Shown here: positions 5,537-43,362 of the stretch, piece by piece
Position numbering within the stretch: position 1 is the first letter of the stretch
Layout: every line of letters starts with the position of its first letter
Virus record (IMG/VR): IMGVR_UViG_3300021420_000066
Span: 1 to 43,635 of that record
DNA from: a virus
Strand: one strand, 5' to 3'
DNA length: 43,635 bases
Position numbers and translations under genes: made by a program
The notes under the pieces: model-generated
Seen by the model: only the letters and a program-made list of their open reading frames with translations
Told to the model about the DNA's origin: nothing
Database searches by the model: none

Positions 5537-7296
5537 GGATGCGCGCCCTTGCCGTTGCTCTTGCCCTTCGGCGCGCCCGGCTCCGGCAATCCCATCTTCA
5601 TCCGCATCTGCGCGGCTTGGGCCGCCTTCTTCTGGCGGGCACGGAGCGCGTGCAGCAGATTGTCCCGATCCGGCGGATTGAGCAGCCGCAGCAGGCCCTC
5701 GGCGTCGATCGCCTGTGCCTTGAACAGGAACGCGGCCAGTTCCTTCGAATCGTCGGCGTAGAGCGGCGAGTGCGAATGGCCGGCGATTCGCAACGAATAT
5801 TCCTCGCTCATGTTGGCGTAGTAGAACGGATCGCCCGGCTTGCCGTCTTCCTTGGGGTCGGGCACGATCGGGTTGTCATCGTTGCGCATGTGCAGTTTGA
5901 AGGTCAGGTCGCCGAGCCGCACCAGCGGTCCCTCCAGCTTCAGCGCGGTCTTCTTGATTCGGCCGGCGCCGGTGGTGGCCAACTGCTTGGCGTGATCCTT
6001 GGAACGGACGCCGGCAGTGCCCTTGCCCTGCACCACCTCGGTCAATCCCGACGCTTCCATAAAGAGTTGCCCGATCTGCATGTAGTCGGCGAAGATGTCG
6101 GGTGGCATTTCCGGGTAGAGTTCCTTGATCGCGGCCTGCGGCAATTGGTCCATCACCCACGAATCAGCACCGCCGAACGCGTCCATCTTCTCGTCGCTTA
6201 AGCCCATGAAGCCACTTCCGACCCGCGGCGGGTAGGCCTGCTTCTCCAGGATGTCGTGTATCTGGTCGAGCCGTTCGTTCGACCATTGCTGCAGCGGAAT
6301 CAGGCTTTCGATGTGCGCCTTGCCCCAGAAATACTCGTAGATCGAGTAGGGCCGCACCAGCGTGTAGGGATGCTCGCGGGGCAGGAACGGGTTGCACTTG
6401 GTGTTGTAGAACGGTTCCTGTTGCTTGCGCTGCGCGCGAAAACCCTCGGTGCCCTTCAAGGCCTCGATGGTGCGCTTGCTGTCGCTTATCACCAAGCCCG
6501 GCGTCACCACCCAGAACACCCGGTAATCCTCGCACTCGTCGTCCCAGATCGTCACCTCGTGGAATTCGACCAGCGGGCGGTCGATCTTGGCATGGTAGGT
6601 GGCGCGCGACACGTAGCTTGGATTGATGGCGCCCGAGGTCTGACCGCCGATGTTTTCGCCGCCGGTCGACGAGATGATCATCCGGGTGATCAATTCGGGG
6701 AACGGTGATTCGTAGGGCGTGTTGACCACCGACAGCACGTCTATCTTGTCGGAAAGCCCGGCGCGGGTCAGCCGCTGGCAGGCGTTGTCGTAGTCGATAT
6801 GGTAAGAGTGGCAGAACGCCTGCTGGCTTTCCAGTTCGGTGATTTCCTCGGCGAACACCCCGAACTGCCACGGCATGATCAGCTTGCAGGTCGGGTCGTC
6901 GTTGACATCGCTCCAGCCGGACTTGAGGATCACGCTGTCGAATTCCAGCGCGCCGATCAGCGCGTCGCCAAAGAAGTCGAACATGCCGGCGTCGCGGAAG
7001 TCGTTGTTGAAGGCATCCTGCGCGCTCATGTACTGCTTGACCACTTCGTCCTTCGAGTTGAGCGGCGCGGAGAGGGAGAAGGTGGCGTGGTCGGGCGAGT
7101 AGAGGAACGAGGCCACGAGGTCGAGGTGGCTTTCGATCCTGTTGTAGATCACCTGGTCGGGGTCTTCACCGCCATAGAGGAAGAACTGCCGCCTACGGTC
7201 GTATAAATCCTTGCGGTCCTTCTTGGAGGCCACGCAGGTGTCGACCACCCATTGCACGAATTCGTCGCGGCGCTCCTTCTCGTGCGGGATGATCAC
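5533..7296 (-). CDS. Portal protein
   Basis: 587 aa from a GTG start (7294-7296) overlapping the upstream TGA. Length and gene order (terminase, portal, scaffold, capsid) fit a podovirus portal, the dodecameric channel through which DNA is packaged and ejected. Features include an N-terminal helical segment (HEKERRDEFVQWVVDTCVAS), YNRIESHLDLVASFLYSPDH, the central wing region, and a helical C-terminus with GMTRP-like loops (SGLTEVVQGKGTAGVRS) ending in an Ala/Gln/Lys-rich tail that may enter the capsid. Confidence 0.85.
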   Translation of the reverse strand: MIIPHEKERRDEFVQWVVDTCVASKKDRKDLYDRRRQFFLYGGEDPDQVIYNRIESHLDLVASFLYSPDHATFSLSAPLNSKDEVVKQYMSAQDAFNNDFRDAGMFDFFGDALIGALEFDSVILKSGWSDVNDDPTCKLIMPWQFGVFAEEITELESQQAFCHSYHIDYDNACQRLTRAGLSDKIDVLSVVNTPYESPFPELITRMIISSTGGENIGGQTSGAINPSYVSRATYHAKIDRPLVEFHEVTIWDDECEDYRVFWVVTPGLVISDSKRTIEALKGTEGFRAQRKQQEPFYNTKCNPFLPREHPYTLVRPYSIYEYFWGKAHIESLIPLQQWSNERLDQIHDILEKQAYPPRVGSGFMGLSDEKMDAFGGADSWVMDQLPQAAIKELYPEMPPDIFADYMQIGQLFMEASGLTEVVQGKGTAGVRSKDHAKQLATTGAGRIKKTALKLEGPLVRLGDLTFKLHMRNDDNPIVPDPKEDGKPGDPFYYANMSEEYSLRIAGHSHSPLYADDSKELAAFLFKAQAIDAEGLLRLLNPPDRDNLLHALRARQKKAAQAAQMRMKMGLPEPGAPKGKSNGKGAHP

Positions 7297-7439
7297 GGCT
7301 TGGCCTGTGTCAGCAGATATTCGGCATCACGCAAAAATACCGGATTGGGTTCGCCTTCAAAACGCAAGCCTTTCTTGCCAAGTCGCACAATAGTTTCGTT
7401 GCGTTCGGGATCATAAGTCCATTTGATTTTGCGATTCAT
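7293..7439 (-). CDS. 48-aa protein coupled to portal
   Basis: ATG at 7437-7439 overlaps the stop of the upstream gene (ATGA), and its own TGA overlaps the portal GTG. Sequence MNRKIKWTYDPERNETIVRL is beta-prone and soluble. The coupling on both sides supports a real gene. Unknown function. Confidence 0.6.
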   Translation of the reverse strand: MNRKIKWTYDPERNETIVRLGKKGLRFEGEPNPVFLRDAEYLLTQAKP

Positions 7440-23977: not shown

Positions 23978-24736
23978 TCAACCTCCCAGATTAGCGGAAT
24001 AGGCACGCAGCGCGGTTGCATCGAATCCCTCTGGTGAAAGACCTTTTGCGTCGAGAATGTCAAGCGACAAGTAGGCGCGGGCCTCATCGGAATAGCGCTC
24101 ATAGAACGCTTGCGTCATCTCCTGCAGCGTGCCCCAGGTGACCACCACCACGTTGCTGCTGGCGACGCGACCGACCGCCGGCACGAAATGGCCGCCGTCG
24201 ATGCGGGAGTTCGGCACCACCGTCCACGGCACCCCGAGGTCGTTCTGCGACATCGCGCTCTTTGGCAGTTCGATCCCGATGCCACAGCCGCCAAACAGAT
24301 AGGTGGCAAGAATCATCTGGTCCCAATCGCCGATCGCCAGCGAGACATGGCAATCGATCTTGTGCCGCGAGGTGTTGCTGACGGCATCGCGAATTCCGGT
24401 GGTGCGCCAGTATTCGGCGCCGGCCTGCATGTCGGTGCCCTGGTCGGTGGCGTCGGTAAAGGCAAACCCGGTCACGGCGGCGTAGTCGCTCAATACATCG
24501 GCGGTGGTGATTCGGACCCGAGGCCGGCTGCCCATCAGCGACCAGGCATATTCGAGGTGCCCCGCTCCGGCCCAGACACAATCGCCCCAGGCGTCGTTGC
24601 CGAGCATGTGCCATTCGTCGACCAAATCCTGGTGGCCGAAGGTGGCCGGCGGCACCGGCAGGTTCGGCGCATAGAAAAAATCCTTGAATGACAGGGTGGT
24701 GGAGGCGCGGGCTGGTTTCTTGCCGAGCTTTTTCAT
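23978..24736 (-). CDS. Papain-like cysteine-peptidase-fold protein
   Basis: 252 aa. LGNDAWGDCVWAGAGHLEYA supplies a possible catalytic Cys with G-x-C-W/A context; GGHFVPAVGRV a His; VVVTWGT a late Asn/Asp-type strand. This order (Cys helix, then His) is that of papain-fold peptidases and resembles phage/bacterial proteins beginning with GND-GDC. Could cleave host wall peptides or another phage protein. Between endolysin and the lysis peptides. Confidence 0.65.
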   Translation of the reverse strand: MKKLGKKPARASTTLSFKDFFYAPNLPVPPATFGHQDLVDEWHMLGNDAWGDCVWAGAGHLEYAWSLMGSRPRVRITTADVLSDYAAVTGFAFTDATDQGTDMQAGAEYWRTTGIRDAVSNTSRHKIDCHVSLAIGDWDQMILATYLFGGCGIGIELPKSAMSQNDLGVPWTVVPNSRIDGGHFVPAVGRVASSNVVVVTWGTLQEMTQAFYERYSDEARAYLSLDILDAKGLSPEGFDATALRAYSANLGG

Positions 24737-25641
24737 CGGGTTTTCCCCGCACCGGACCGCAGTACCCTGATTTGTTCCTCCGCCGAGCCATCGACCACGG
24801 TGGTATTGCCCGGCATCTTCATCGCCAGATCATGCCCGGCCGGCGTGTTGTTGACGATGATGGCCTGCACCGGCGAATCCGGGTTCTTGGCCAGTTGGTC
24901 GACCACGGCGACCGCGTTGGTGTCGGTGTGGGCGAATATACCCCAGACCAACGGGATCAGGGATGCCAGCGCGCCGCCCCACATCTCCAGTTGCGACGAG
25001 GTGGCATAGCCGTGGGCGATCACGATCGGCCCAAAAGTGGCGATCAGCCAACGAACCAGCGCCTGGGATTGCTGCGCGTTCATGGTGATCATACCCTTCT
25101 TTGCTGGCGGTGACGCAAATGCAAGTGCAGGCGACACCATAGAAAGCGCGTTATTTTCGACAAATGCAACCCGGTTTAGCCATCCCTTGGTAAAACGCGG
25201 CTGATTTAAGCTGTGATACCAAGCCGTTGCCGCGGCGGAGTAGGCCCGTATGGCGCTGGCGGGATCACGGCTGGCAACGGCGGCAAGCGTAATCGGCCCG
25301 ACCGTGCCGTCGGCGGTGACCCCCAGCGCCTGCTGCAGCAGGATGGTGGCCCGCCGCGGCCCGGCCAGCACGCAATTGTTGAAATAGACATAATCGAGCC
25401 CGATCGGCATCTCGTCGCAGTAAGGCTCCCAATAATTGTCGTGGTAGATGGTCTCGATATCGTCCTGCGAGGCGGTCCAGACGTCCTGCGTCGGCAGGCC
25501 CTGTCCGGTGCGCCAGGCGTCATATTCGCGCTGGGTGATGCCTCTGGAGGTCCGGCCGCCATGATCCTGCGGGTCGTCGTCGTTGCCGCCCTCCGACTGC
25601 AGCACCAGCGCCAGACTTGCCGGGAAATTGGCAGCGACCAT
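24733..25641 (-). CDS. Endolysin (GH108) fused to a holin-like domain
   Basis: 302 aa. Residues 1-80: GH108 lysozyme pattern (LQSEGGNDDDPQDHGGRTSR, catalytic Glu17). Residues about 85-170: PG_binding_3-like (QQALGVTADGTVGP, KGWLNRV). From residue 187 (MNAQQSQALVRWLIATFGPI) a hydrophobic helix pair (VIAHGYATSSQLEMWGGALA, ASLIPLVWGIFAHTD) resembles stand-alone holins that begin with this Met. An AAGGG precedes an internal ATG (25081-25083), so separate translation is possible. A fused lysis unit is unusual. Confidence 0.8.
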   Translation of the reverse strand: MVAANFPASLALVLQSEGGNDDDPQDHGGRTSRGITQREYDAWRTGQGLPTQDVWTASQDDIETIYHDNYWEPYCDEMPIGLDYVYFNNCVLAGPRRATILLQQALGVTADGTVGPITLAAVASRDPASAIRAYSAAATAWYHSLNQPRFTKGWLNRVAFVENNALSMVSPALAFASPPAKKGMITMNAQQSQALVRWLIATFGPIVIAHGYATSSQLEMWGGALASLIPLVWGIFAHTDTNAVAVVDQLAKNPDSPVQAIIVNNTPAGHDLAMKMPGNTTVVDGSAEEQIRVLRSGAGKTR

Positions 25642-25644
25642 GAC

Positions 25645-28206
25645 CTATCCTGGGATGAGCAGCGATGATTTGACCGTGAAACTGGTGTCGGGCGAGGTAC
25701 AGACTGCGGCACCCGTGGCCTGCCACTTGTAAGTCCACACCCCGGAGACACTGGGGACGAGCTGCTGATGGAAATGCCCCAGCGAATCGCGGGTAATGGT
25801 GCCCGGATAGGTGTACGAGGTGGCGACACCGTTCGGGTTGAGCATAAATAGCGTGATGGCGGTCGGATCGATGTCGACGCCGGTGAGCGCGTTGATGAAA
25901 ATGCCGTTGATCTGGATGTCGGTATCGATTTCGTAGACGCCCATGTAACCAGCTCCGCTCCAGCCTTGGCCCGATGGGCTGTCCGATCCGATCGCCACGA
26001 ACAGGCCGTTGTCGAGCGCCTGCGAAGTATAAAGCAGCAAATCGAGCGCGTTGGCCGAAAATACCGGGATATCGACACAGAATGCAAGCGACGGCACGCC
26101 GATGATCGGCACCGGCAGCGTGAACACCAGGCCGCGCTGCGGCGTCTGCTGCCACCATACTGGCGGCTCATAGATGTTCCAGGTCCACCACGGCACGATC
26201 CGCGGCGGGTTCTGCACCGGCGGCGGGAACGGGCCATTGAGCAGGCCCTGGTGCGGCTGCTGCCAGATCGCCGGCTGATCGGCGTTGTAGTTCCAACTCC
26301 ACCAGTTGAAGTTAGGCCGCCCGGCCAGTACCGGCGCGATCAGCGAACTCGGCGGCGCCTGCCAGGCCCACATCTTGGAAAAGTCGTGGTCGTATTTCCA
26401 TACGCCCGGGATGAAAGGCACCGCCTGCGCCAGCGTGAATATCTGCTGGTCGCGTACCGGCGTGCGATACCAGATCGGGTCGTCTGGCACCGTGAAATTG
26501 TAGCGGTTCTGGTAGAGCGGCGCCGGCGGGATCACCACCGGACGCTGTAGCGCGGGCTGCCAGGTAACCGCAGGCTCGTTGAAAGCCAGATGAGGCCAGA
26601 AGGTAGGTATCAGCGGGTTTGGCTGCGGGGTGTGAATCAGAAGGTTGCCGTTGGCCCACGGGAACCAGTGTGAGGCGTCGTTATAGTCGTAGTTCCATTT
26701 CTTCTGCGGCGGGCGGCCGCCTGAAGTCAGTATCTGGATCGGCGCGGAGTTCAGGGTCTCGTTGGCGGGCTGCCAGACCGGCTGGTCGTCGGTATAGGAA
26801 TTCCACTGCCGCGCCGTGAACGGCTTGTTCTGCGACAGGATCGCCTCGACGTTGGCACGCAGCGCCTGCCATTGCCATACCGACCAGTCGTCGACGCTCT
26901 GCTTTTTCCAGTAGGCCGGCGAGAACGGCACCGCCTGCGGCGTGTTCAGAATTGGCAGGTTGCTCGATCGCGGTCCCTGCAGGTAGTTGTCGTCGTCGTA
27001 GTAATTGATCTCCATGCCGCTGGTCTTGTAGGGCACCAGCGACAGCGCGGCCGGGTTCGGCGCGGTCCATTGCCAGAATGCGGCGTCGTCATTGGCGAAC
27101 GAGGGCGAGCGAGCATTGGGAGGCTGCGGGCTCTGCACCACCTCCATCGTTAGCGGAACCTCGGTAGGCGTCGCATACCAGTCGGGCGGGTCGCCGGGCC
27201 GCGGCACGTAGAACGGCGGATAGAACAGCACCGGCGGGTTGATGATCACCGTCGTCAATGTCAGGAACGAATTCAGGGTGTCAGGGGTTGGCGCCCAGAT
27301 CGCCGCCTCGTCATAGTCATAGTATTGGTGCCAGTTCGGCGTCGGCGGCTGGCCTCCGGTCGTCAGCATCGGAATAGCCGCCGAGTTGAGCCATTCCGCC
27401 GACATCTGCCAGTTGGGCGCGTCATCATAGTCGGTGTGCCAAACCCTTGAGAACGGCGGCTGCAGCATCTGCAACGGCGCCGCATTCAGGTAATCCACAG
27501 ATATCTGCCACGGCGTATCGTAGGTGGTGAAGAACCACTGCGGCCCGTTGCCGATAACGGGATGAGCCAGAATCTGGATCGGTGCCGAGTTGAGCAGTTC
27601 CGCCTTGATCTGCCACGAGCCGGTCTCGCTGTAGTCGAAGCGCCATGTCCGCGGCTTTGTCGGCGCGCCGGAAGGTAGGTTCTTGCTTGTGACGGTCTTG
27701 CCCTGCCACGACGGCGGGTCGGGTGGATTGGAAATGCGGAACGGCGCGCGTGGGATGGTCGCCGGGCCGGAATTGGCAACGATATTTGGACTTTGCCAAC
27801 GCGACCAATCGGCTGGGTCGGGAGGAATAAAGAACCATTGCGGGCCGTTACCGATCGTAGGCCTGCCCAAAATCTGGATGGTGGCGGAATTCAGCAACTC
27901 GGCCTTGATCTGCCAAGGATGAGGCTCGTTGTAGCCAAACTGCCATTGCCGCGCGGTGGCGGTCGGTCGTTTGGCAAGCACCGGGATGATCCCCGAATTG
28001 AGGTTTTCTGGGACCGGCGCCCAAACCCCGGTCTCCTGGTAGTCATAGCACGATTGCTTGGTCGGCACCTGTCCGCCGGCACCGAACATCTTCTGTTCGG
28101 TCAGGAACTGGATGATTGGAGATCGGCGCGGCTGGGTGCCCGGCGACCACAATTGGTCTTCCGCCGGCCGCTTCACATAGAATGGGGCTTGCGGGAGGGT
28201 TGCCAT
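25645..28206 (-). CDS. 853-aa Trp-rich tandem-repeat protein
   Basis: No family recognised. About residues 50-700 are made of roughly 30-40-aa units with consensus W-x(3)-Y-x-[DE]-x(3)-W-Q-x(3)-E-x-L-N-S-A-x-I-Q-I-L then a PP/GG linker. LNS-type motifs are at about residues 69, 105, 205, 240, 273, 311 and 485. Units at about 98-126 and 198-226 are near-identical in protein but differ in wobble bases. The C-terminal 140 aa form an Ig/FN3-like beta domain (SGVWTYKWQATGAA). Placed between an adhesin-like gene and the endolysin; virion or surface-binding role is guessed. Confidence 0.8.
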   Translation of the reverse strand: MATLPQAPFYVKRPAEDQLWSPGTQPRRSPIIQFLTEQKMFGAGGQVPTKQSCYDYQETGVWAPVPENLNSGIIPVLAKRPTATARQWQFGYNEPHPWQIKAELLNSATIQILGRPTIGNGPQWFFIPPDPADWSRWQSPNIVANSGPATIPRAPFRISNPPDPPSWQGKTVTSKNLPSGAPTKPRTWRFDYSETGSWQIKAELLNSAPIQILAHPVIGNGPQWFFTTYDTPWQISVDYLNAAPLQMLQPPFSRVWHTDYDDAPNWQMSAEWLNSAAIPMLTTGGQPPTPNWHQYYDYDEAAIWAPTPDTLNSFLTLTTVIINPPVLFYPPFYVPRPGDPPDWYATPTEVPLTMEVVQSPQPPNARSPSFANDDAAFWQWTAPNPAALSLVPYKTSGMEINYYDDDNYLQGPRSSNLPILNTPQAVPFSPAYWKKQSVDDWSVWQWQALRANVEAILSQNKPFTARQWNSYTDDQPVWQPANETLNSAPIQILTSGGRPPQKKWNYDYNDASHWFPWANGNLLIHTPQPNPLIPTFWPHLAFNEPAVTWQPALQRPVVIPPAPLYQNRYNFTVPDDPIWYRTPVRDQQIFTLAQAVPFIPGVWKYDHDFSKMWAWQAPPSSLIAPVLAGRPNFNWWSWNYNADQPAIWQQPHQGLLNGPFPPPVQNPPRIVPWWTWNIYEPPVWWQQTPQRGLVFTLPVPIIGVPSLAFCVDIPVFSANALDLLLYTSQALDNGLFVAIGSDSPSGQGWSGAGYMGVYEIDTDIQINGIFINALTGVDIDPTAITLFMLNPNGVATSYTYPGTITRDSLGHFHQQLVPSVSGVWTYKWQATGAAVCTSPDTSFTVKSSLLIPG

Positions 28207-28207
28207 A

Positions 28208-28906
28208 TCACATCGACATCAAGGTTTGCTGTTGCAGAGTCAGAGGAACCGCCGTGGTGAACGGAATGCTGACGATCAGGCCGACCCAATTATCGGCAGG
28301 ACTGAGTGTATAGGTGTGGGTAACGGTACTTGAAGCCGAAAAACTATCGGCACCACGGCATACGGCGCCGGGAGAGTTCAGCGTATCATTGCCAAATCGC
28401 ACGGTGCCGCCGGTTGGTCCGGTCGGTGTGGTGCTGATGTCCATCATCGCCGAGAAGGCGTAGCTGCCGATCGTCGTCGTGGTGGATAGCGATGCGCTGG
28501 AGGCGCTGGTCCCAGAGCCGGCCGAAACGTTTGCACTCCAGTCGGTCAGCAGAGGATCGACTCCGAACAGGGAAACCGAAAACACGTCACAGCTCGATGT
28601 GGCACCGGCAATGCGCTTGACGCCAAGCGTCTTGTGGCCGGCCGTGGCATTGGCCAGACCATAGAAAAAAACATTGCCGACATTGGTGACCGCGTTGCTG
28701 CCGATCAGCGTCAGCAGTTGGTTGCTGCCGGCAGTGTCCCAATTGACCTGGAAAGAGGTGCCCGCGGTGCTGTTATCGAGCACGGCGACGAACAGCGCTT
28801 CACTAAATCCAGACCCGACTGTCTGGTTGGTGAAGCTGAAGGTCGCGCCGTTGGCCAGGGTGTTCTGGGCGCTGGCCGTCGCATAAGCATCGAGTGAAAC
28901 GGCCAT
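28208..28906 (-). CDS. Beta-sandwich adhesin-like protein
   Basis: 232 aa, Ser/Thr/Gly-rich. FVAVLDNSTAGTSFQVNWDT...LLTLIG...VFFYGLANATAGHKTLGV...SLFGVDPLLTD is the jelly-roll-like pattern seen in bacterial and phage surface proteins. It is paralogous to 30516-31196. Probably a fibre or receptor-binding accessory. Confidence 0.65.
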   Translation of the reverse strand: MAVSLDAYATASAQNTLANGATFSFTNQTVGSGFSEALFVAVLDNSTAGTSFQVNWDTAGSNQLLTLIGSNAVTNVGNVFFYGLANATAGHKTLGVKRIAGATSSCDVFSVSLFGVDPLLTDWSANVSAGSGTSASSASLSTTTTIGSYAFSAMMDISTTPTGPTGGTVRFGNDTLNSPGAVCRGADSFSASSTVTHTYTLSPADNWVGLIVSIPFTTAVPLTLQQQTLMSM

Positions 28907-28916
28907 GGCTCAACCA

Positions 28917-29270
28917 TCAGTGGAACCTTTGCAACACCAGGTTTGCCGGGCCGGAGTTGGACGTGCCGACGTTGGTGGCCTGCGGATTATACGACGTTAC
29001 CGCGATGGTGAAGCACGAATCGCATAGCATCGGGTCGGGTTCGGAGTCCGGTATCTGCAGGATCGACCTGATCTGGAAACGCTCCGGGAAGGTGCGGTCC
29101 TTCGGCTCGTATTGCGCGAAGCAGTGCCGGCAGACTCGCTTGCGCTCCGCCAGCGCGGTCAGGATCATCCGGGCGTGCATCGAGGCGCCGAGATCGGCCT
29201 CCGCAGTATCCAATATCTTGCGGGCCTGACGCGCCAGTTGCCAGGCCTGCCACCAGGATTTCAGGCTCAT
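28917..29270 (-). CDS. Zinc-ribbon structural-region protein
   Basis: 117 aa from ATG 29268-29270 (TAATG overlap). N-terminal helix (SWWQAWQLARQARKILDTAE), then CRHC...CDSC, a zinc ribbon, then a Gly/Ser tail. Function unknown. Confidence 0.6.
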   Translation of the reverse strand: MSLKSWWQAWQLARQARKILDTAEADLGASMHARMILTALAERKRVCRHCFAQYEPKDRTFPERFQIRSILQIPDSEPDPMLCDSCFTIAVTSYNPQATNVGTSNSGPANLVLQRFH

Positions 29271-29788
29271 TACTCGGACTCGAATATGGTATGGCAGCCG
29301 ATCGCGCCGGTGGTGCCGCCGGTATAGGCCGATAGCGACACCTCGCCGAATGAGGCGGTATTGCCCAATAGCAGCGGGCATTCCTCGACGCGGTTGGCGC
29401 GCCAGAAGTAGACGCCGCCGAAGGCATTGAGGCTCATGTTCAGGAGTTTCAGGGTCGCGCTGCGCTGCGGTGGTGTGGTCCAGGTGTTGTTGACGATTAC
29501 CGGAGCGGCCAGTGCGGCGGTGGCCGGATCGAGCGCGGCGACGGTGCCAATGTTGGCCGGGAAGGTGCCGGGGGTGGCGCCTACGGCTGAATCTCTCGCC
29601 AGCAGCATGAAGGTCGGCGAGGAAGAAGAGGCCGCCTGCCCCGAGATCGAGACTTCCCAGATACGGTTCACCTGGGTGGCGGAGCCGCCCTGGATGGCAT
29701 AGGGGTAGGTGGCGTTGGCGAGGGTAGTGGCGGCGTCGGCGGTGGCGGTTGGAGTAATGGTAACGTATTGAGCGCTGAGTCTTGCCAT
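29270..29788 (-). CDS. Virion-type beta protein
   Basis: 172 aa. MARLSAQYVTITPTATADAA; RIWEVSISGQAASSSSPTFM; ends GAIGCHTIFESE. Pattern of small phage particle-surface proteins found in tandem with zinc-ribbon proteins. Its first 121 bases overlap the upstream gene's reading frame. Confidence 0.65.
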   Translation of the reverse strand: MARLSAQYVTITPTATADAATTLANATYPYAIQGGSATQVNRIWEVSISGQAASSSSPTFMLLARDSAVGATPGTFPANIGTVAALDPATAALAAPVIVNNTWTTPPQRSATLKLLNMSLNAFGGVYFWRANRVEECPLLLGNTASFGEVSLSAYTGGTTGAIGCHTIFESE

Positions 29789-30120
29789 AACGGTAGTCCT
29801 TTCGCTGCGCTGTTGAGAAAGCTCTCAAGTATCTTCTTGAACGGCACGCACGGATGACCGAGCTTCATCAGCAGGGAGCATCGATCGCATATATCACGGT
29901 CGCAGGACCGGCAGTAGCCCCGGCTGCGATCACGCTTCGGGTTGAGGATGATTGTATACTGACAATGGGAACACTGGATAGTGGGTGATTTCAGCACGGT
30001 GCCGCCCGGAACCACCAGTTTGGACCCGACCGAGGCGGCCTGTTCGGCGCTGATGCCGGGCGAGTGGGAATGGTCGACTTCGACGTAGCCCTCCAGATCA
30101 CGCTTGGAAAACGGTCGCAT
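29668..30120 (-). CDS. Zinc-ribbon protein with odd C-terminus
   Basis: 150 aa. The first ~105 residues are a clean double ribbon (IQCSHCQYTI, GYCRSCDRDICDRC...CVPFKK). The last ~45 residues (PPPPTPPLPSPTPP) run through the next gene in a shifted frame, so the true end may be earlier, with a frameshift or sequencing error near 29800-29830. The coupled TGATG start is sound. Confidence 0.6.
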   Translation of the reverse strand: MRPFSKRDLEGYVEVDHSHSPGISAEQAASVGSKLVVPGGTVLKSPTIQCSHCQYTIILNPKRDRSRGYCRSCDRDICDRCSLLMKLGHPCVPFKKILESFLNSAAKGLPLWQDSALNTLPLLQPPPPTPPLPSPTPPTPMPSRAAPPPR

Positions 30121-33248: not shown

Positions 33249-34223
33249 TTATTGCAGCCGGTGTACTGAGATCGTCGAGTCCTTGGAATTTCCGGTGGCG
33301 TTGAACTGCATCTTGGCGGTAGTGGTGCTGGCACTACAGTCGATCCTGATGTTCGCCACCGGACTGGCAAGGAACCCGGACAATGATATAGTAATCTGTA
33401 AATTAGCCGCAGGAAGCACGGTCTGCGCGCTACTTATGATCGTGGTGCCATCCCATAGTTTGCAGTTGTATCTCGGGGCGGCGGCGGTATCGGTCAATGT
33501 GATAGTGCCGGACGCCCACCACGTTCCTGTAGTGCCTTGGGCCACTGTTGGGCCGTTGAAATACACCGTGATGGTGCCGCTGTTCATCGCCACGTCGGCA
33601 CCGAGCGAATTGGTGATTCCGGTCGACTTCAGCGAGATCACGCCGACGCTGGATTGCAGCGTCACGTTGTCAGGCTCCATGCATCCAAACTGCGTGAATG
33701 ACGCCTGCTGACACCGGATGTCGTTGACGCTGTTGAAGATGCCGGTACCGGAATTGAGCGTGAAGGCGCCGGTGTTGCCGGCGATCGAGGTGACACCGGC
33801 GGCCGACGCCAGTGTCGACACCTGCACATTTTTCAACTGACCCGAGGCAGCCTGATCCTGAATCAGAACGAGGTCAGTACCGGCAGGCGAGGCCTTGTTG
33901 GTCAGGGCTCCGATGGTCGAATAGATCGGCGATGCGGTGACGCCGGAGAAGTTGCCGAGTAGCGACCATGCGGTGCCGGTGAACAGCGACGGGTTTGGAT
34001 AGGTGCCGGTCAACTGGCCGCCTGCCGGACCCGACGGCGGGAAACTGCCGGTGAGGCAGCCAAAGCCGGCATCCGCAATCTGGGTGGTAGAGAAGAATTT
34101 GGTGCAATCGCCGGGAATCGGCGCTGGCCCGATCACACTGACCGGAGATTGTGCCCATACCGGGTTACCTCCCAGCAAAACGAGGGCGAGAATTGCCCTA
34201 GCTGTAATATTCGAGCAGGACAA
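33249..34223 (-). CDS. Secreted fibre-like protein
   Basis: 324 aa from a TTG start (34221-34223); no in-frame ATG nearby. Signal-peptide-like ITARAILALVLLGGNPVWAQ, then GPAGGQLTGTYPNPSLFTGT (a phage fibre collagen/GDLTGTYPNP motif), then long beta sequence. Overlaps the previous gene by 26 nt. Confidence 0.65.
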   Translation of the reverse strand: MSCSNITARAILALVLLGGNPVWAQSPVSVIGPAPIPGDCTKFFSTTQIADAGFGCLTGSFPPSGPAGGQLTGTYPNPSLFTGTAWSLLGNFSGVTASPIYSTIGALTNKASPAGTDLVLIQDQAASGQLKNVQVSTLASAAGVTSIAGNTGAFTLNSGTGIFNSVNDIRCQQASFTQFGCMEPDNVTLQSSVGVISLKSTGITNSLGADVAMNSGTITVYFNGPTVAQGTTGTWWASGTITLTDTAAAPRYNCKLWDGTTIISSAQTVLPAANLQITISLSGFLASPVANIRIDCSASTTTAKMQFNATGNSKDSTISVHRLQ

Positions 34224-34506
34224 TGACGTTGCTCCCTGCGCTCGACGCGACCGCGTTCATACCGTTGGTCCACGCCGGCGTGTTGGGCGGGCCGAACATC
34301 ACGCCCTGCAGCGGCTGGATCGCCACCGAGCCGGCGCCGTTGACCGCGGCGTTGATCCCGGTAGGCGACACCCACAAGGTAATGGATGCTGACGGGTTAA
34401 ATACGTAGATGCCGGCGCGCTGGTTGTTGACGCTGGCGACCTGCACGCTGGCGTTGGAGACCGTTGGCGCGGACAGGGCATTGGGCGATGGGTAGGTGCT
34501 GGCCAT
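34198..34506 (-). CDS. Small structural-type protein, paralogue of 1519-1926
   Basis: 102 aa. AGIYVFNPSASITLWVSPTG and the end VIVLLEYYS match the pattern of the product of 1519-1926 (without signal peptide). ATGA overlap region with the upstream gene. Confidence 0.6.
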   Translation of the reverse strand: MASTYPSPNALSAPTVSNASVQVASVNNQRAGIYVFNPSASITLWVSPTGINAAVNGAGSVAIQPLQGVMFGPPNTPAWTNGMNAVASSAGSNVIVLLEYYS

Positions 34507-35009
34507 CAGAACTGATACCCGCTCGAATTAACGTTGACCGCAGTGGCGGTGGCATCCGCCGTGGTGGTGATAGTGATGGCGGTGTTGATGGCGCTCGACG
34601 GTAGGCAGGGCGTGAAGGTCGGCGACACGCTGCCGGGCGCTGTCAACTGGAAGGTCTCCGAGCCGCCGGCAAGGCCCGCAACCGTGATCGGACCGACGGC
34701 GCCGGTGCCGGAGGCCGACACGGTGAAGCTGCACAGCCAGGTCCGCTGTGTCGCCGAGGCGGCAAGCGTAGCTACCACCGCGCCTGTCGTGCCGGAGGCG
34801 TTGCCGACGATCTGGGTCGAGCCGGTGGGCGCGCCGGTGCCGCCCGAGGTGCAGGTGTTGCCGTTGAGGTCGACCACGCAGGCGTTGAAACCGCCGGCGG
34901 TGTAGGGGTTGGTCAGCGCCGAGCCGCAGGCCGAGACCGTGAAGCATTCGCTGGCCGCGATGGCAGGGGAGATGCCGAGCAGCAGAGCCGCTATGATGTA
35001 CCGTATCAT
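34506..35009 (-). CDS. Secreted Cys-rich beta protein
   Basis: 167 aa. Signal peptide MIRYIIAALLLGISPAIAAS; mature part with six Cys (ECFTVSACGS, ACVVDLNGNTC, WLC, PCLP) and long Thr/Ala-rich strands. Disulfides in the periplasm are likely. Strong GAGG before the ATG. Role unknown. Confidence 0.6.
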   Translation of the reverse strand: MIRYIIAALLLGISPAIAASECFTVSACGSALTNPYTAGGFNACVVDLNGNTCTSGGTGAPTGSTQIVGNASGTTGAVVATLAASATQRTWLCSFTVSASGTGAVGPITVAGLAGGSETFQLTAPGSVSPTFTPCLPSSAINTAITITTTADATATAVNVNSSGYQF

Positions 35010-40826: not shown

Positions 40827-41173
40827 GTGATACCTAGAAGTTGTCTTATGACGGAGTGTTCCGATGCGTGATACCCGGTCCAGTTGTAAAAATCATTTTC
40901 ATCATCTAGATTGACCGCTCCCAAGTCGATCCCTGTAATTCCTAACGTCGCCCTCAATAGTAGATGACTCTGGGCGTGGGATTGCACAATAGACGTTCTG
41001 GATTGCCCGGCTGTCAAGAACGATAGAAAATCAAAATCAGGAATTACAATCGGGGGCGTCTGTTGGGAGAGAACCTGAACGAATTGAATGTGTTCTCGCA
41101 TGTGAGAAACGTCCCATGCGCCGTAGCCGGCGAGATCGTTGAACGTCACCTGATCGGGCTGGAACTGCGGCAT
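40823..41173 (-). CDS. Head-tail region protein
   Basis: 116 aa. MPQFQPDQVTFNDLAGYGAW, DFYNWTGYHASEHSVIRQLL; acidic, mixed. Between nozzle and HNH. No family recognised. Confidence 0.65.
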   Translation of the reverse strand: MPQFQPDQVTFNDLAGYGAWDVSHMREHIQFVQVLSQQTPPIVIPDFDFLSFLTAGQSRTSIVQSHAQSHLLLRATLGITGIDLGAVNLDDENDFYNWTGYHASEHSVIRQLLGIT

Positions 41174-43362
41174 TACTTGTTGCCCACGTTGGTCTCCTGG
41201 TACTCAAGGGTCAAATTGGTCATGGTGAAGTTGGCCAGCGTCCCGGTCACGGTAGCGCCGAGATAGCGGCCAGCTCCGTCCCCGGTAACGGTTAGCGCGT
41301 TGAAGCCCGCCACGACGTTCTCCAGATAAGTCTGACTGCCCTCATTGGTGTCCATCGAGACGTTGAACTTGACGTTGGCCGTGGTAGTGGCGGCGAAACC
41401 TATGCGCAATGTCTTCTTCCTTTGCACCGCATTGCCGTGATGGGTCAATGCGGTCTGCAATTTGAACACCACCGGCTGTGCGGCGTTGGCGAGGATTTGC
41501 GTGATGTCCTGCCCGGAAGAGGCGAAGGTCAGCGTGCGTCCGCTAGCGAGCGTCGAGGCGGTGGCGACCGCGGTCAACCCCGTGCCCTGGTTGATGACGA
41601 ACCATTTCTTGTCGGTGAAGGCCAGCAGGATCGAGCGCTCGTTGGCGAGCGGGTCTTTGTAGCGCACCAGCCAGGCGATGTGATGGATGTTGTTGATGTC
41701 GGCGATGCAGGACTGCGGCTCCTGGGTGAAATCAATCAGTCGGAAGATGCCGTCCATGTCGTCGGAGACTTTCTGCACACTTGAGCCGAACACCGCATAG
41801 ACGCCATTGGTGTTGGCGAAGAAGAACACCCGGTTGAACGAGCCGCAACTATTGGTGTAGATCGTGCCCTGGTCGCTCGATAGCGTCAGGATGGTGAACA
41901 GCGTGATGTTGCCGAGCGAGTTGAGCGAGATGTTGCCGATCTGCTTCACCGACTGGTCGCCCATGATCCACAGGTAGTTGTTGAAATTCCGCAGAGCGGT
42001 GATGGAATGAGTGAGGTCGGCGTCGGTGATGGTCAGCGAGCCCGAGGCGTTGGTGGCGGAAAAATCGTCGAAGCCTGCCGTGCCGGTGTACTGCAGCAGA
42101 CGAAAATTGCCGCCCGGAGACATGCCGTTGAGCCACACTCTTCCGCCGAACACCGCCAGCGTGTTGCCCTTGGGCACGAACGGCCAGACGTGGGCGGTGG
42201 CGGATGCGCCGGTGCCACCACCACCGCTGAAGCCTACGGTGAGAACGTCGCTCGCCAGATAGCCGGCGCCTGGATTGGTCAGGGTGACCGAGGTGACGCC
42301 GGAGCCGCCGACCACCGCTGCCGCGGTTGCGCCCGACCCGGCACCACCGCCGGTGAACGACACCGATGGCGCCGAGGTATAGCCCGAGCCGCCGCTGGTC
42401 ACCGTGATCGACAGCACGCGGCCGTTGCCAACGGTGCAGGTGGCGGCCGGCGAGAAGCCGCCAGCGCCGAAGGTGCCGCCGGAAAACACCACGGCGGGCG
42501 CGCTGGTATAGCCCGACCCGGCCGTCACGATCGAGATGCCGGTCACCACGAAGAACCCGAAGGCATTGACGGAAAACGTGGATTGCGCCGTGGCGCCAGA
42601 GCCGCCGCCGCCCGAGAATGACGTCACCACCGGTGTCGGAAGATTGATGTCGCGGTAAGCGCCAGGATTGGTGACGGTGACGGTGTTGACGCCACGCGGG
42701 TCGATGGTGGCGGTTGCCGCTGCTCCGATGCCGCCGCCGCCGGCAAACACCACGCCTGGTGCCGGGCCATATCCCGAGCCGCCATTGATGACGTTGACGG
42801 CAACCACCGCCGGTGTGCCGATGGTGGCGACCGCGGTAGCGCCGGTGCCGGAGCCGCCGGTGATGGTCACGGTCGGCGGCGAGGTGTAGTTGGCGCCCGG
42901 TGCGGTCAGGGTGATGACCGGCGAGACGCCGCCCTGCTGCACGAATGCGGTGCCGTCCCAGGTCGAATAGCCGGCGGTCGGGTCGTTGATCAGGATGCGC
43001 AGGCTCTGCCACACCGTCATGTCAGGGTTGGAGAAGGTGCCGGGCGAGGCGAACCGGGCCGAGATGCCGGTCGCGATGTTGGTGGCCCAGCCGGCGCCGT
43101 TGGTGGTGAACGAGATGATGTAATCGACCGCGCCGATGTTGGCGTAGTATTGCAGGTTGATGCTGTCGGCGATGTTTGAGATCGCCGTATTAGGCCCCGG
43201 TACGGTCACCAGATTGTTGGGCGCGATCGGCTGCAGGTTTTCCAGCCACGCCAGTTCCTTTTCGTTGAGCGCCTGGCGCACGCTCTGGGTATTCATCTTC
43301 TCGAACTGCTCGAAGACGATGAACTTACTTTCAGCGCGCTGCACCTGTCCAGGCGGGGGCAT
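41173..43362 (-). CDS. Nozzle / tail-tubular-B-like protein with beta repeats
   Basis: 729 aa. N-terminus LNEKELAWLENLQPIAPNNL, then six glycine-rich units (residues about 145-375; NGGSGYGPAP, TAGSGYTSAP, SGGSGYTSAP). C-terminal half VFGGRVWLNG...LWIMGDQSVKQIGNI...SSDQGTIYTNSCGSFNRVFF, then MDGIFRLIDF, is the beta-propeller pattern of T7 gp12/P22 gp10-type nozzles. Directly downstream of the adaptor gene (ATG 4 nt after its stop, GAGGTG ribosome site). Confidence 0.8.
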   Translation of the reverse strand: MPPPGQVQRAESKFIVFEQFEKMNTQSVRQALNEKELAWLENLQPIAPNNLVTVPGPNTAISNIADSINLQYYANIGAVDYIISFTTNGAGWATNIATGISARFASPGTFSNPDMTVWQSLRILINDPTAGYSTWDGTAFVQQGGVSPVITLTAPGANYTSPPTVTITGGSGTGATAVATIGTPAVVAVNVINGGSGYGPAPGVVFAGGGGIGAAATATIDPRGVNTVTVTNPGAYRDINLPTPVVTSFSGGGGSGATAQSTFSVNAFGFFVVTGISIVTAGSGYTSAPAVVFSGGTFGAGGFSPAATCTVGNGRVLSITVTSGGSGYTSAPSVSFTGGGAGSGATAAAVVGGSGVTSVTLTNPGAGYLASDVLTVGFSGGGGTGASATAHVWPFVPKGNTLAVFGGRVWLNGMSPGGNFRLLQYTGTAGFDDFSATNASGSLTITDADLTHSITALRNFNNYLWIMGDQSVKQIGNISLNSLGNITLFTILTLSSDQGTIYTNSCGSFNRVFFFANTNGVYAVFGSSVQKVSDDMDGIFRLIDFTQEPQSCIADINNIHHIAWLVRYKDPLANERSILLAFTDKKWFVINQGTGLTAVATASTLASGRTLTFASSGQDITQILANAAQPVVFKLQTALTHHGNAVQRKKTLRIGFAATTTANVKFNVSMDTNEGSQTYLENVVAGFNALTVTGDGAGRYLGATVTGTLANFTMTNLTLEYQETNVGNK

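Follow-up and report, generated by a model that had tools for sequence, protein, structure and literature searches.

A Trp-rich tandem-repeat protein with a predicted Ig-like C-terminal domain, a candidate host-contact protein of uncultured tailed phages

Results

The 853-amino-acid (aa) protein encoded at 25645-28206 of a 43.6-kb virus record (the window, i.e., the whole stretch of 43,635 nucleotides analysed here) is a tandem array of Trp-anchored units followed by a predicted Ig-like domain (the cap), and probably serves a tailed phage as a virion-associated arm for host contact, as judged from sequence and gene context. The array changes in unit number between relatives, one cap ends three different kinds of array, partner genes are conserved beside these arrays and the protein is under selection. 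The Trp-type unit is a new repeat type, used in a strategy familiar from the BACON arrays of crAssphage, and the protein is not isolated but part of a wider set of repeat-array proteins in uncultured phages.

Layout of the repeat gene

The repeat ORF lies on the minus strand, with its ATG at 28206 and its stop at 25645, in a record that also carries a terminase and a major-head-type gene (36102; phrog_21712), and no tRNA was found in the 43.6-kb window. A single base separates the gene from an upstream 232-aa gene and three bases separate it from the endolysin ORF. Its parts are as follows:

25645..28206, minus strand: whole repeat gene including the stop codon (ORF; full-length homology to L010:4732-6441)
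28054..28206, minus strand: conserved N-terminal segment, aa 1-51, with the first array unit (common to L010, L026 and L027)
26098..28182, minus strand: tandem array, aa 9-703, about 20 Trp-anchored units of 30-42 aa (anchors, unit scores, cross-trained profile against shuffles)
27829..27945, minus strand: aa 88-126, first unit of the closest pair in the array (29/39 residues shared with aa 188-226)
27529..27645, minus strand: aa 188-226, second of that pair (same comparison)
25648..26097, minus strand: C-terminal cap, aa 704-853, predicted to be Ig-like and ending in SSLLIPG (20 invariant columns in seven sequences; model of L002)

The N-terminal segment carries the motif PFYVxRPAExxxWS…SPIIxFLTxQKMFGAGGQVPTK. 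The array has 19 anchors in which an acidic residue precedes Trp, plus one degenerate unit, spaced 30-42 aa apart, and its composition is 15.1% Pro and 6.3% Trp. Its consensus reads W-x-Y-D/N-Y-D-D-P-S-x-W…L-N-S…I-x-x-L…P, with residue percentages over 46 unit rows of W48 N20 Y39 D33 Y41 D54 D65 P33 S35 V26 W100 (the last value is fixed by anchoring on that Trp), followed by LNS, I..LL and P-rich linkers. The original prediction had described cores resembling LNSAxIQIL joined by PP/GG linkers; these are present but clear in only about eight units.

A profile built from L026 and L027 only, two other phages, with the window protein left out, scored eight window units at 3 bits or more, against a mean of 0.04 and a maximum of 2 when the array was shuffled 1,000 times. 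The ORF, the anchors and this cross-trained profile thus agree on a large Trp-rich tandem-repeat protein, as had been proposed. Many units are far diverged, with only 31% of window unit pairs scoring above the 95th percentile of shuffles, and a search by regular expression alone and self-BLAST of the window protein returned nothing useful. When the whole window protein was modelled in AlphaFold2 with six aligned relatives, the repeats had no confident fold (pLDDT 31), nor was any structure predicted in the repeat region of L002 (pLDDT about 30). For overlapping six-unit fragments MAFFT aligned by identity rather than by repeat register, and the other fragment alignments were likewise dropped.

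Age of the units and selection

No DNA-level tandem repeat is left in the array, which indicates that the unit copies are old. In the most similar pair (aa 88-126 and 188-226), 29/39 residues and 82/117 bases are identical (70% at the DNA level), so that the earlier description of two almost identical units was overstated (74%), but the excess of wobble differences that it reported is real: 20 of the 35 base differences fall at third codon positions, and 14 codons differ silently while 10 change the amino acid. This argues for an old duplication with the protein kept by selection. Between the window and L010, dN/dS was 0.37 in the repeats (0.329/0.886) and 0.12 in the cap (last 150 residues; 0.079/0.673). 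The units are therefore old copies of one another that have diverged under purifying selection. Of the proposal that the sequence is kept by selection rather than recent copying, the first half stands; whole units, however, are still being copied, as seen in the count of about 12 in L010 against about 20 in the window.

Relatives with Trp-type units

The protein in L010 (L010:4732-6441, 570 aa) is 65% identical to the window protein over aligned positions, matches it at both ends and is without about 280 residues of units. The proteins of L026 (398 aa) and L027 (430 aa) share the window protein's N-terminal segment; their units, 11 in each, are cleaner, and they have no cap. The repeat gene of L026 lies inside a virion block with tail-protein PHROGs (phrog_376 and phrog_394). 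L010 keeps the window's order of repeat gene and then endolysin; in L026 and L027 no endolysin comes after the repeat gene.

As predicted, the protein belongs to no named family. Pfam and NCBIfam held none at E<=1, PDB sequences gave no usable match, and in PHROGs only sub-threshold hits were obtained (best phrog_17896 at 0.31, or 0.0035 for the best cap-domain member). There was no match to the window protein in 50,697 phage records, none in cultured phages for the window protein or those of L003, L013, L019 or L038, and no relative in a cap scan of genomes from 84,980 species; no mention of the repeat motifs was found in open-licence literature. All the relatives found come from uncultured phages (IMG/VR contigs), and more may exist, as the collections searched leave out records very near the window.

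The C-terminal cap and the arrays that carry it

A second type of array, with a repeat of about 40 aa, a YDWPNPRG core and FFGAAGQvP linkers, is present in at least 12 other viral contigs (L002, L003, L013, L014, L016, L019, L034, L035 and others). In L002 and L003, the C-terminal 150 residues of the window protein recur after such arrays, and L003 also encodes the cap alone, as a 130-aa gene without an array, adjoining the capped array gene. L038 and L039 carry the cap as well, there behind a third kind of array whose repeat, ADxAVPLESLGS, has a period of 14 residues; the cap there is 36% identical to that of the window (E 8e-28 and 1e-26). These two proteins (L038:4516-6507 and L039:997-2736) are large arrays that share the window's cap but have a different repeat, without Trp and with a period of 14; L038 has a collagen-like fibre gene near the array gene. 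Both the YDWPNPRG/FFGAAGQ and the ADxAVPLESLGS repeat-array proteins were previously unnamed and were found here. Standalone Ig-like candidate genes beside the arrays of L012 and L019 were considered as detached caps and rejected, as their cap profile scores were not above those of shuffles.

An alignment of seven caps has 20 invariant columns, and all end similarly in S-x-x-(I/L)-(A/P)-G. The fold was modelled on the relative L002, about 59% identical to the window in this domain: AlphaFold2 predicted a six-strand sandwich (aa 241-330; mean pLDDT about 60-87 in blocks). The top Foldseek matches in the PDB were CBM48, filamin and other Ig-like domains, none at E<=0.001, and VIA gave Ig/filamin-like matches with middling Z scores (up to 8.0). 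In BFVD, an uncharacterised protein of an uncultured phage was among the best viral models for the cap, at E 2e-5, as was a BppU N-terminal domain protein (E 1e-3). With no PDB match at E<=0.001 and a best Z of 8.0, only a general Ig-like fold is claimed; at that level the model and its Ig/filamin-like matches support the prediction of an Ig-like C-terminal end, in which the cap would form a two-sheet beta-sandwich of Ig-like topology.

The YDWPNPRG arrays resemble the window protein in having two conserved aromatic positions per 30-42-aa unit, an FGAAGQvP linker, the same partner genes and, in L002 and L003, the same cap, but the unit profiles of the two types do not align significantly (profile-profile P 0.26). 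A profile of the N-terminal segment matches the FFGAAGQvP linkers (L013, 44.6 bits; L016, 25.3 bits), carried by the short FGAAGQvP motif; its best single-domain score was 14.4, against 7.7 for the best shuffled sequence. In L014, a phrog_26379 domain (E 1.7e-54), which baseplate PHROGs match more weakly, precedes a YDWPNPRG array in one protein, and the gene adjoins a Baseplate_J gene (E 1.8e-28); the fusion partner thus appears to be tail- or baseplate-like. Given the P of 0.26, what ties this fusion to the window is only the cap, the N-terminal linker and the neighbourhood shared by the two array types.

A strict scan of genomes for YDWPNPRG returned one true repeat protein and two chance matches. 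The true one, 473 aa long (L023:553-1971), sits on a contig of 3.9 kb that was binned to a Chloroflexi MAG; as none was found in 300 further genomes of that phylum, the contig may be a binned phage fragment.

Neighbouring genes

The genes around the repeat gene in the window are:

28208..28906, minus strand: upstream neighbour, 232 aa, beta-rich (the near relative L025 has a different gene in that place)
29270..29788, minus strand: partner gene, beta-sandwich-like, 172 aa (also L010, L026, L027, L002, L003, L013, L016, L017, L034 and L035)
29668..30120, minus strand: partner gene with CxxC zinc-ribbon motifs (in 9/16 loci tested)
24733..25641, minus strand: endolysin with GH108 and PG_binding_3, and a Pam3-type holin domain in the same ORF (Pfam)

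The placement between a beta-sandwich protein and the endolysin had been part of the original prediction; the endolysin is confirmed by its GH108 and PG_binding_3 domains, and the beta-sandwich nature of the upstream neighbour is a reading of its sequence, which has no match in Pfam, PHROGs or NCBIfam. The two partner genes lie upstream of the repeat gene in most loci and with both repeat types. The zinc-ribbon gene, whose start is an internal ATG assigned by alignment to L010, is near the repeat gene in L010, L026, L027, L002, L003, L013, L016, L017 and L034, and on the short contig L035 the sandwich gene was seen; neither gene is present in the examined stretches of L011, L012, L014, L019, L038 and L039.

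The holin domain at 24733-25641 (PF23987) scores 30 bits against a cut-off of 27, and in L010 endolysin and holin are encoded by two genes that overlap (6448-6960 and 6957-7325). The joint ORF is either a genuine fusion or due to a frameshift in one of the records.

Most nearby genes of the window and L025 are 61-97% identical, and the genes at 28211, 30519 and 31199 have no counterpart. Host-contact modules typically swap their adhesin-like genes in this way. Unlike adhesin-type genes (window 28211 and 30519; L025 7236 and 10142; L026 4524) end in Met-rich C-terminal tails (…AKLVMM, …QQQTLMSM, …SARLVMM, …GYQPMVLM and …QPQTMKMM), which might perhaps be a common docking tag. Several fibre-like proteins (window 33249-34223 and 34506-35009; L003 4345-6876; L026 at about 8380) start with Sec-like signal peptides, for example MIRYIIAALLLGISPAIAAS, which is odd for presumed virion proteins. 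The protein at 33249 also has a GGQLTGTYPNPSL motif, as in tail fibres, and that of L003 (4345-6876) has an S74-chaperone-like C-terminal stretch. In the 729-aa structural-type protein at 41173-43362, the same stretches match many PHROGs of baseplates, heads and fibres, probably via a common repeated domain.

Discussion

Our data suggest that the repeat protein is probably carried on the virion of a tailed phage as an arm that contacts the host. The array of about 20 units rich in Trp, Tyr, Asp and Pro would form an elongated shaft presenting many aromatic side chains, and these could contact the host envelope or its polymers; the shaft would be interchangeable and variable in length and the Ig-like cap its constant end. 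We infer both its location on the virion tail and which end would anchor it. Consistent with this role are the cap common to Trp-type, YDWPNPRG-type and ADxAVPLESLGS arrays, the range in unit number (20, 12 and 11 in the window, L010 and L027), the lower dN/dS of the cap than of the repeats (0.12 vs 0.37), the partner genes in most loci, the adhesin-like neighbours that differ between near relatives, the L014 fusion and the tail PHROGs of L026; the evidence on cap and neighbours comes from a few uncultured contigs. Against it stand the pLDDT of about 30 for the repeats of the window and L002, the P of 0.26 between unit profiles, the capless arrays of L026 and L027, the lack of zinc-ribbon and sandwich partners in L038 and L039, and a repeat gene that directly precedes the endolysin. 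A bolder form, which we consider rather unlikely, is a modular adhesin system in which the constant Ig-like cap is recombined with unrelated shafts and the Trp shaft is a new fold giving multivalent, ladder-like aromatic binding to the host.

Two other roles are each unlikely. The protein could decorate the head or capsid surface, its array binding particles or polymers in soil rather than a receptor. Ig-like domains are found on capsids as well as on tails, and the capsid-type gene 36102 (phrog_21712) is upstream of the repeat gene, with no obvious tail-fibre gene between the two; non-tandem crAss-BACON proteins have also been suggested to decorate capsids (PMC6949934). The L014 protein, in which a related array is joined to a tail/baseplate-like domain, the tail-protein PHROGs in the L026 block and the differing adhesin-like neighbours of near relatives speak instead for the tail. 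Just as improbable, in our estimate, is a passive role in which the array is no more than a spacer: a Pro/Trp-rich linker, extended or disordered, that only determines how far another receptor-binding protein reaches, its Trp residues packing along the shaft without binding the host. The low model confidence, the lack of predicted secondary structure, the Pro content of 15% and the use of three unrelated arrays with the same cap would all fit such a linker, but the Trp-acid core is strongly conserved across phages and under purifying selection, which argues that more than length matters.

An accessory protein for lysis or the cell wall, produced alongside the endolysin to act in the cell, is very unlikely: the endolysin ORF is only three bases downstream and the order is the same in L010, but no endolysin follows the gene in L026 and L027, and there is no catalytic or wall-binding family match. 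A chance low-complexity ORF without function, to which the low-confidence structure prediction might point, is refuted by the dN/dS of 0.37 and 0.12, the homologues of the same layout in other phages and the shuffle test, and retains a negligible probability.

For the preferred role in host contact, the closest parallel is one of strategy. In crAssphage, tandem arrays of BACON domains are tail-associated, vary in unit number and have been proposed to bind the host (PMC6949934). The window protein resembles these in its varying unit number and virion-gene neighbourhood, not by homology: BACON units are known Ig-like domains, whereas the window's units of 30-42 aa are rich in Trp and Pro and of no known fold, and no BACON domain was detected in the protein (no Pfam match at E<=1). 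BppU of the lactococcal phages TP901-1 and Tuc2009 links the tail core to the receptor-binding proteins (PMC3893620). Any likeness to the window protein is confined to the cap, where one BFVD model, that of a protein with a BppU N-terminal domain, matched at E 1e-3. In place of the helical linker and trimeric C-terminal domain of BppU, the window sequence appears to have the Trp-rich array, and, unlike in BppU, the predicted Ig-like domain is C-terminal, after the array, and has no Pfam sequence match. With a BACON-like strategy and a possible BppU likeness in the fold of the cap only, we place the protein among the repeat-array host-contact proteins of phages, its location on the virion being predicted.

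Phages without cultured relatives would thus carry host-contact proteins that are absent from databases, and since no database recognises them, host prediction misses them. The profiles of the cap and of the Trp unit, together with zinc-ribbon and sandwich neighbours, provide a searchable signature for such genes, and one cap joined to different shafts offers a case for testing how phages alter reach and specificity without replacement of the whole protein.
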